The notes under the pieces: model-generated
Databases searched by the model: none
Seen by the model: the letters and a program-made list of their open reading frames with translations, nothing else
Told to the model about the DNA's origin: nothing
Assembly (NCBI GenBank): GCA_001769835.1
Contig: MEPR01000021.1
Span: 1 to 32,277 of the forward strand
Direction of reading: 5' to 3'
Length of the DNA stretch: 32,277 nucleotides
DNA from: Bdellovibrionales bacterium GWB1_55_8
GTDB lineage: Bacteria > Bdellovibrionota > UBA1018
Position numbers and translations under genes: made by a program
Shown: piece by piece, positions 1,499 to 1,846 of the stretch
Layout: each line of letters begins with the position of its first letter
Numbering within the stretch: position 1 is the stretch's first letter

Positions 1499-1580
1499 CT
1501 GGTCGGACAATGAAACAGGCGACCAGAAAAAAGCTTGGCCCACGAAGGGCCGTTTGAAGAGGGCGGTTTCGCAACCCACC
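1499..1580 (+). other. stacked hairpins upstream of the riboswitch aptamer
   Basis: Three stems follow each other. CTGGTCG (1499-1505) pairs with CGACCAG (1520-1526), then comes A6. GGCCC (1537-1541) pairs with GGGCC (1547-1551). GGTT/AACC closes a short TCGC loop around 1565-1576. The first is not a plus-strand terminator because A, not T, follows it. They may be a 5' stabilising or regulatory part of the same RNA. I know no family they match. Confidence 0.35.
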
Positions 1581-1582
1581 CC

Positions 1583-1680
1583 TTTTGAAAAAGGCAAACC
1601 GGTTGAAAAGCCGGGACGCAAAGCCACGGGACTTCGAGCTGCTTACCCCGACAGCTCATGTTAGCCGGGCTGCCAAAGGA
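1583..1680 (+). promoter_or_regulatory. c-di-GMP-I (GEMM-I) riboswitch aptamer
   Basis: The conserved GEMM-I core is present in order. GGCAAACC (1593-1600) is followed by a GAAA-type loop (1605-1608), then GGGACGCAAAGCC (1612-1624), a variable second arm around CGAGCTG/CAGCTC (1634-1656), and TAGCCGGGCTGCC (1662-1674). A closing P1 can form between the CCTTT-rich 5' side (about 1581-1587) and CAAAGG (1674-1679). The base before CAAACC that contacts the ligand in the Vibrio Vc2 structure is G, as expected for c-di-GMP rather than the A reported for cGAMP-type GEMM-Ib. Family knowledge says this RNA binds c-di-GMP. A strong terminator follows at 1762-1805, ahead of queE. Confidence 0.9.
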
Positions 1681-1694
1681 GGAAGACAAACGAA

Positions 1695-1760
1695 GGACCA
1701 CTGAGTTGGTCCGGCAGCATTTCAAAGGGGGGTCCCCCAAATGGACCCCCTCTTCATCTC
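1695..1760 (+). promoter_or_regulatory. expression-platform hairpins of the riboswitch
   Basis: GGACCA (1695-1700) pairs with TGGTCC (1707-1712). A G-run ending in GGTCC (about 1726-1734) pairs with GGACCCCC (1743-1750). Together with the terminator stem at 1762-1797, three successive hairpins reuse the complementary words GGTCC and GGACC, so alternative pairings are possible, for example 1743-1748 with 1765-1770. This is the layout expected of a terminator/antiterminator switch. Which conformation the ligand favours cannot be read from sequence. Confidence 0.5.
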
Positions 1761-1761
1761 A

Positions 1762-1805
1762 AGAGGGTCCGGTGGCACGAATGCTATCGGACCCTCTCCT
1801 TTTTT
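1762..1805 (+). terminator. strong intrinsic terminator downstream of the riboswitch
   Basis: A perfect 10-bp GC-rich stem, AGAGGGTCCG (1762-1771) with CGGACCCTCT (1788-1797), is followed by CC and six T residues (1800-1805). It lies between the c-di-GMP aptamer and the queE start at 1847. Confidence 0.85.
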
Positions 1806-1846
1806 CGGGCATAGAGTTTCAGTGAAAAAAAACGTAAGAAACAGAC

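Follow-up and report, generated by a model that had tools for sequence, protein, structure and literature searches.

Cyclic di-GMP RNAs of the merRNA type across the Bdellovibrionota and their placement ahead of queE in one order

Of the RNAs described so far, the one closest to the locus considered here is merRNA from Bdellovibrio bacteriovorus HD100, a riboswitch RNA made in extreme abundance, lacking a gene in cis and proposed to act as a c-di-GMP reservoir (PMC3627812). Its coordinates are given as 1,073,741-1,074,185 on the reverse strand (Karunker et al. 2013, Table 2, PMC3627812), and the paper reports it as unconserved outside Bdellovibrio (PMC3627812). Within the open-access subset of the literature, as far as its texts were available, a link between merRNA and queE was not found in print. 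The window analyzed here, a 32,277-nucleotide stretch of DNA from Bdellovibrionales bacterium GWB1_55_8 (contig MEPR01000021.1), carries a c-di-GMP-I aptamer and a terminator directly ahead of queE. An earlier note on this DNA had offered two options for the arrangement, namely c-di-GMP control of queuosine synthesis or an RNA that stands alone in the manner of merRNA, and the two are compatible with each other. We regard it as reasonably probable that the locus specifies a free-standing c-di-GMP RNA of the merRNA family and that, in the window's own order, queE is transcribed through read-through of its terminator.

An Rfam scan of the window places the c-di-GMP-I aptamer at 1584-1678 on the forward strand, with 71.9 bits for c-di-GMP-I-GGC (RF03167, cut-off 59), a family reportedly described by Weinberg in 2017. 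RF01051, on whose match the earlier note had made its GEMM-I assignment depend, does match, at 1583-1677 with 83.1 bits against a cut-off of 35, and the assignment stands. Each of the two models finds a single match in the window's own genome, and the region 1484-1846 folds better than 100 of 100 shuffled versions (z -4.96). The window thus scores above both cut-offs of two families that Rfam types as Cis-reg, yet most copies in the phylum come without an obvious gene in cis. Riboswitches for preQ1 are found before que genes, and the neighbor here is likewise a queuosine gene; no preQ1 family matches the window at Rfam gathering thresholds.

The 3',3'-cGAMP riboswitches (GEMM-Ib) of Geobacter share the aptamer scaffold of c-di-GMP-I, and cGAMP-type aptamers carry an A at the position called G20. 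The unpaired base just 5' of the P2 GC pair, which we take to be that ligand-selectivity position, differs from GEMM-Ib in being a G in the window and in 125/125 loci. G20 of Vc2 is quoted as a selectivity factor. Because of this invariant G, c-di-GMP is favored as the ligand, and we infer that the window RNA would bind it. Four GGDEF proteins are encoded in the own genome. Three have the D of ordinary diguanylate cyclases and look canonical, while the fourth (L082, G000:C40:112488-112958) has a receiver-like stretch at its N-terminus and a T replacing the D at the base-selecting site (GHLAGT), presumably the Hypr signature, and is possibly a hybrid cGAMP/c-di-GMP synthase. With three canonical proteins and one with T, c-di-GMP can be made, and possibly cGAMP too. 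A cGAMP (GEMM-Ib) reading of the aptamer, prompted by the T of L082, was rejected as the main reading on the strength of the same G.

Matches to these models extend well beyond one genus. RF01051 matches in 136 of 368 genomes of the phylum, once per genome and above the cut-off in 135/368; RF03167 matches in 129/368, above its cut-off in only 25/368, and a single genome (G215) has a second, weak RF03167 match. None of the 14 control genomes has a match, and 232/368 phylum genomes have none at the filters used. Flanking sequences were taken for 125 of the 129 RF03167-matched genomes (G047, G048, G050 and G052 were left out and judged by their coordinates), and these 125 loci omit the second G215 match. 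This census differs from the report that merRNA is not conserved outside Bdellovibrio. The match in HD100 itself (G190:C1:1073867-1073950, minus strand) falls within the published merRNA coordinates and strand, which argues that the phylum is the Bdellovibrionota and that the window RNA belongs to the merRNA family. Judged by these matches, the merRNA-type RNA is a single-copy family found across the phylum, usually without an attached gene. So far merRNA has been an isolated oddity, and a phylum-wide set with a shared layout, a conserved strand exchange and a constant terminator position provides comparative material on its role.

Transcription of the window RNA would be expected to start near 1482, downstream of a promoter-like motif, TTGCAA-N13-GCGCTA, at 1450-1474 on the forward strand. 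Of the 35 loci in the window's own order, 20 have the motif in its general form, TTG-N3-N12..15-GNG[CT]TA, ahead of the aptamer against 0.5 expected, a count that holds partly by construction because the motif was chosen after these sequences had been viewed. Family f11 has it in 19 of its 58 loci (1.1 expected); HD100 is among them, and there the published 5' end of merRNA lies 46 nt downstream of the first base of the motif (281 versus 235 nt ahead of the aptamer). Families f16 (1/8), f18 (1/15) and the others (1/9) show it at background frequency. A previous spacer for the motif found 11 of 125 loci against 4.9 expected, and the spacer was refitted to the own-order alignment and HD100.

The 5' part of the RNA contains the upstream hairpins that the earlier note had placed at 1499-1580. 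The first, CTGGTCG/CGACCAG, spans 1499-1526 on the forward strand (arms 1499-1505 and 1520-1526; inverted repeat I11 and fold). The second, GGCCC/GGGCC, is predicted by folding at 1537-1551 on the same strand, and a CCCA..GGGC hairpin recurs at this site in most own-order relatives. A purine element R, TGAAGAGGG, follows at 1555-1563 (forward strand); it is complementary at 9/9 positions to 1748-1756 (I5), and a GAAGAGG-like R element is present in 32 of 33 own-order loci. Far upstream, positions 1-120 of the window resemble the starts of L002, L006, L017, L018 and L021 in a stretch of the form CTCTCTTCAAAAAATTCATCC...TTCAAAGAACA. In several genomes such a stretch opens the contig, 350-540 nt ahead of the aptamer, and its reverse complement resembles an rRNA-operon boxA leader. 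A divergent rRNA operon upstream of the RNA may account for these contig breaks.

Four short elements on the forward strand would allow the RNA to adopt two folds. The pyrimidine element Y1, CCCCTTTTGAAA, at 1579-1590 can act either as the 5' strand of P1 or as an alternative partner of the purine element R2 (I4). R2, TTTCAAAGGGGGGTCC, lies at 1720-1735 in the 3' domain, beyond a small folded hairpin (GGACCA/TGGTCC, 1695-1712, forward strand); it reads like a copy of the P1 3' strand, CCAAAGGAGG, and can pair with Y1 or Y2. The pyrimidine element Y2, GGACCCCCTCTTCA, at 1743-1756 pairs with R2 in a local hairpin or with R over a long range. R2 and Y2 in these forms are features of the 3' domain in the own order. 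Complementarity in the window between R2 and Y1, the latter taken as the P1 5' strand with its upstream neighbors, covers 12 nt at 92%, and Y2 is complementary to R2 at 8/8 and to the upstream R at 9/9 positions. The minimum-energy ligand-free fold of 1485-1800 contains Y1:R2, R:Y2, P2, P3 and the terminator together.

Comparison among relatives bears on which of these pairings are maintained. Duplex energies between Y1 and the 3' region were better for own than for swapped partners, with 0 of 2000 permutations as good (121/125 loci, kinship ignored), and the result persisted when swaps were made only inside families (-14.01 versus -13.48, again 0/2000). Family f1 taken alone had weaker own than swapped pairs (-15.61 versus -16.57). 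The region upstream of Y1, paired with the 3' domain across all families, gave a negative result (p 0.45 overall and 0.96 inside families). Within the own order, 33 of 35 loci entered the swap tests (G040 and G044 lack the Y2 motif), and own pairs were better than swapped ones for P1 (p 0.0006), for R2:Y2 (p 0.009) and, weakly, for R:Y2 (p 0.03), in each case with kinship ignored. Y1:R2 in these 33 loci gave p 0.51, because this pairing hardly varies. The long-range helices of the own order have 92.9% of cells paired, with 234 of 500 shuffles as good and no co-variation, and P1 plus R2:Y2 have 90.2% of cells paired with 0 of 500 shuffles as high (kinship ignored). One analysis of R2 and Y2 used 31/35 own-order loci and omitted G014 and G030, which hold Ns, in addition to G040 and G044. 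On these comparisons, Y1 and its partner in the 3' domain change in sequence together across the phylum, and the exchange of strands that they make possible is conserved.

An intrinsic terminator closes the element at 1762-1804 on the forward strand, with a stem of 16 pairs (1762-1797, -29.0 kcal/mol) followed by a T-run, CCTTTTTTCGGG; the word strong that the earlier note had attached to it is well chosen. The distance from the aptamer to the end of the terminator stem has a median of 112 nt in 30 queE-adjacent loci and of 112.5 nt in 84 loci of the free-standing families, the latter group including some loci at odd distances. In a separate automatic survey of terminators, some picks fell well outside the main cluster and are likely errors. 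The terminator comparison covered 119 of the 125 loci (30 + 5 + 84), leaving aside f7 and f9 as well as loci whose right flank was short. Stems are stronger before queE (median -25.4 versus -16.0 kcal/mol), and the T-tract is weaker there (median 5 versus 7 T of 9, p 1e-7 with kinship ignored). A weak T-tract is also found where an own-order locus has no queE beside it (4 of 5 shown), and it may therefore be a trait of the lineage and not an adaptation to read-through. Many terminator loops in own-order and f11 loci carry a GGA or GAxG motif (e.g. ATGGATG, CAGGAAAGC), which to our eye is reminiscent of CsrA/RsmA sites.

Set beside merRNA of HD100, the window RNA has the same aptamer families in a single copy, the same kind of terminator, the Y1/R2 strand-exchange element and a similar promoter-like motif. 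The aptamer end lies 126 nt from the mapped 3' end in HD100 and about 125 nt from the end of the T-run in the window. In the layout held in common, 5' hairpins precede the aptamer; a 3' domain follows, in which a purine element can take the place of the P1 strand, and about 112 nt past the aptamer comes the terminator. The two RNAs differ in their 5' extension, which is 235 nt in HD100 and about 100 nt in the window, and in their surroundings, as no queE lies in the flank searched in HD100 and queE stands directly behind the RNA in the window. With a homologous single-copy aptamer, the same terminator distance and a conserved exchange between Y1 and the 3' domain, the window RNA and merRNA are, as far as sequence comparison goes, members of one RNA family. 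The free-standing, merRNA-like option of the earlier note is borne out more strongly than the letters alone could have shown, in the family membership, by coordinates, 3' end, terminator and strand exchange. As to genes in cis, queE adjoins the RNA in most aptamer-bearing genomes of the own order and is absent or displaced in six.

The gene at 1847-2521 on the forward strand, with a GTG start, has QueE (7-carboxy-7-deazaguanine synthase, radical SAM) as the best family of its product (TIGR04349, E 7e-71, 238 bits, below the curated cut-off of 300) and Pfam Radical_SAM above cut-off, in keeping with the queE named previously as the nearest gene. Among the 40 aptamer-bearing genomes of the window's order, 34 have queE directly behind the RNA, on the same strand and within about 135-325 nt. 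It is absent or displaced in the other six (G005, G010, G047, G036, G039, G041). In G005 and G010 it lies about 4.4 and 9 kb on, with the first gene behind the RNA on the opposite strand; in G047 RNA and queE are separated by an ORF of 387 aa on the opposite strand; in G036 the two are at the ends of different contigs that, by eye, share a repeated stretch; and in G039 and G041, at 95% completeness, queE was not detected and the RNA is kept. At the G036 contig ends, after the RNA in L189 and before queE in L215, a GGGGTCGGAGCCTTTTCTG element recurs as an inverted copy; it may be a small mobile repeat that came to separate the two. Conversely, G017 keeps queE and its DUF4097-like neighbor with no aptamer match, so that queE does not need the RNA everywhere; ahead of its start codon (L208) a short T-run remains, and the TGTGATAAAAT stretch after it is a possible new promoter. 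In G032, another genome with no aptamer match, the contig ends, by eye, inside an apparent RNA 3' domain before queE.

Outside the window's order, tblastn of the flanks, which mostly reached about 4 kb to either side and in some loci stopped short at a contig end, found queE in 0 of 90 loci; the RNA there is often preceded by an Mrp/ApbC-like P-loop gene and faces a convergent LysM-SLT gene. The synteny with queE is real, then, and confined to the window's order, and the RNA persists where queE has been lost or moved. The oddness that the earlier note saw in a c-di-GMP aptamer beside queE, as well as the synteny it looked for in relatives, holds inside this order and gives way to other neighbors outside it. 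Other neighbors within the order are retained less well, as the next upstream gene family is the same in 15 of 29 loci and the second downstream gene in <=6/26. The queE link is close enough to point to co-transcription, and its exceptions indicate that the RNA has a function of its own.

For the preferred reading, a free-standing RNA with read-through into queE, the following course may be proposed. A transcript of about 320 nt would begin near 1482 and end in the T-run near 1803. In its ligand-free fold, Y1 would pair with R2 and R with Y2, clamping the aptamer. In the ligand-bound fold, Y1 and the strand right after the aptamer would form P1, and R2 would be freed to pair with Y2. Since the terminator is predicted to form in either fold, most transcripts would stop there as a discrete c-di-GMP-binding RNA, presumably an abundant one. 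From the end of the terminator stem to the first aligned queE codon the median is 46 nt (range 24-142, 28 loci), and no conserved promoter-like block was seen by eye between the two in part of the 33-locus own-order alignment. From this short gap and the lack of such a block, queE, a few tens of nt past the terminator, is probably transcribed from the RNA promoter by those polymerases that pass the terminator.

A bolder extension of this reading, which we put forward tentatively as a possibility, is that a c-di-GMP-gated, single-copy noncoding RNA, ancestral to much of the Bdellovibrionota, acts in trans or as a c-di-GMP reservoir through the conserved exchange, by which its purine element R and its CU-rich element Y2 are exposed or hidden, and that in the own order it was also captured as promoter and leader of queE, coupling c-di-GMP to queuosine. 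If true, such a capture would tie the second-messenger state to the supply of tRNA queuosine. The order with queE provides a natural comparison, since the RNA there has a gene attached to it, and genomes in which queE has been lost or separated serve as controls.

Among the alternatives, a classical transcription riboswitch for queE, in which c-di-GMP sets the terminator against an antiterminator, fares best and is nonetheless doubtful. Pairing in the window is possible between Y2 (1743-1754) and the 5' arm of the terminator (1761-1770). Ligand would thus place Y2 in R2:Y2 and let the terminator form (OFF), and without ligand Y1:R2 would leave Y2 free to block it (ON). The co-directional adjacency to queE, kept better than other neighbors, and the tight spacing speak for such a switch, as does an antiterminator hairpin in the window of -13.0 kcal/mol, the second strongest of 33 (inverted repeats I9 and I10). 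Against it, Y2 and the terminator arm do not co-vary (own -7.77 versus swapped -8.10 kcal/mol, p 0.91, 33 of 35 loci used), in a test whose positive control, the two arms of the terminator, was strong (-26.7 versus -13.0). Moreover, the antiterminator is nearly absent in some queE-adjacent relatives (G003 -0.9, G049 -1.0, G030 -2.6), and RNA and terminator are also found together where queE is missing. With no co-variation and an antiterminator close to absent in relatives, the terminator is read as the constitutive end of the RNA. Control of queuosine synthesis by c-di-GMP, the first option of the earlier note, is accordingly the less likely of its two; it is kept because of the same-strand adjacency and the little room for an ordinary separate promoter. 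A c-di-GMP aptamer beside a gene is insufficient to assign that gene to c-di-GMP control.

It is unlikely that the synteny is passive, with queE using a promoter of its own that overlaps the terminator and the RNA being unrelated. The retention of queE and the DUF4097 neighbor in G017 and the position of queE past an opposite-strand gene in G047 would suit this view, which sits poorly with the median room of 46 nt, with the lack, by eye in part of the alignment, of a conserved promoter-like block and with an adjacency that outlasts other neighbors. Least probable is a combination of the two roles, in which the c-di-GMP RNA stands free and ligand, by way of folding kinetics and with no fixed antiterminator, adjusts how much transcription reads on into queE; this would unite the queE adjacency with the conserved strand exchange, yet no conserved element was found that ties the switch to the terminator.

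Several minor features surround the RNA and queE. Upstream, the window encodes at 284-1459 on the minus strand a divergent DUF4097 (toastrack) protein, whose family is the next upstream one in 15 of the 29 loci of the own order for which an upstream gene was called. At the end of queE, positions 2500-2545 hold a nearly perfect direct repeat with units of about 25 nt (GGGGTGCAGA..CAG.GGCGTCTGA), the second unit lying after the stop codon. A tRNA-Cys (GCA) follows at 2606-2681 on the forward strand, and Rfam also places a tRNA downstream of the RNA in L017, L018, L021, L030 and L220.
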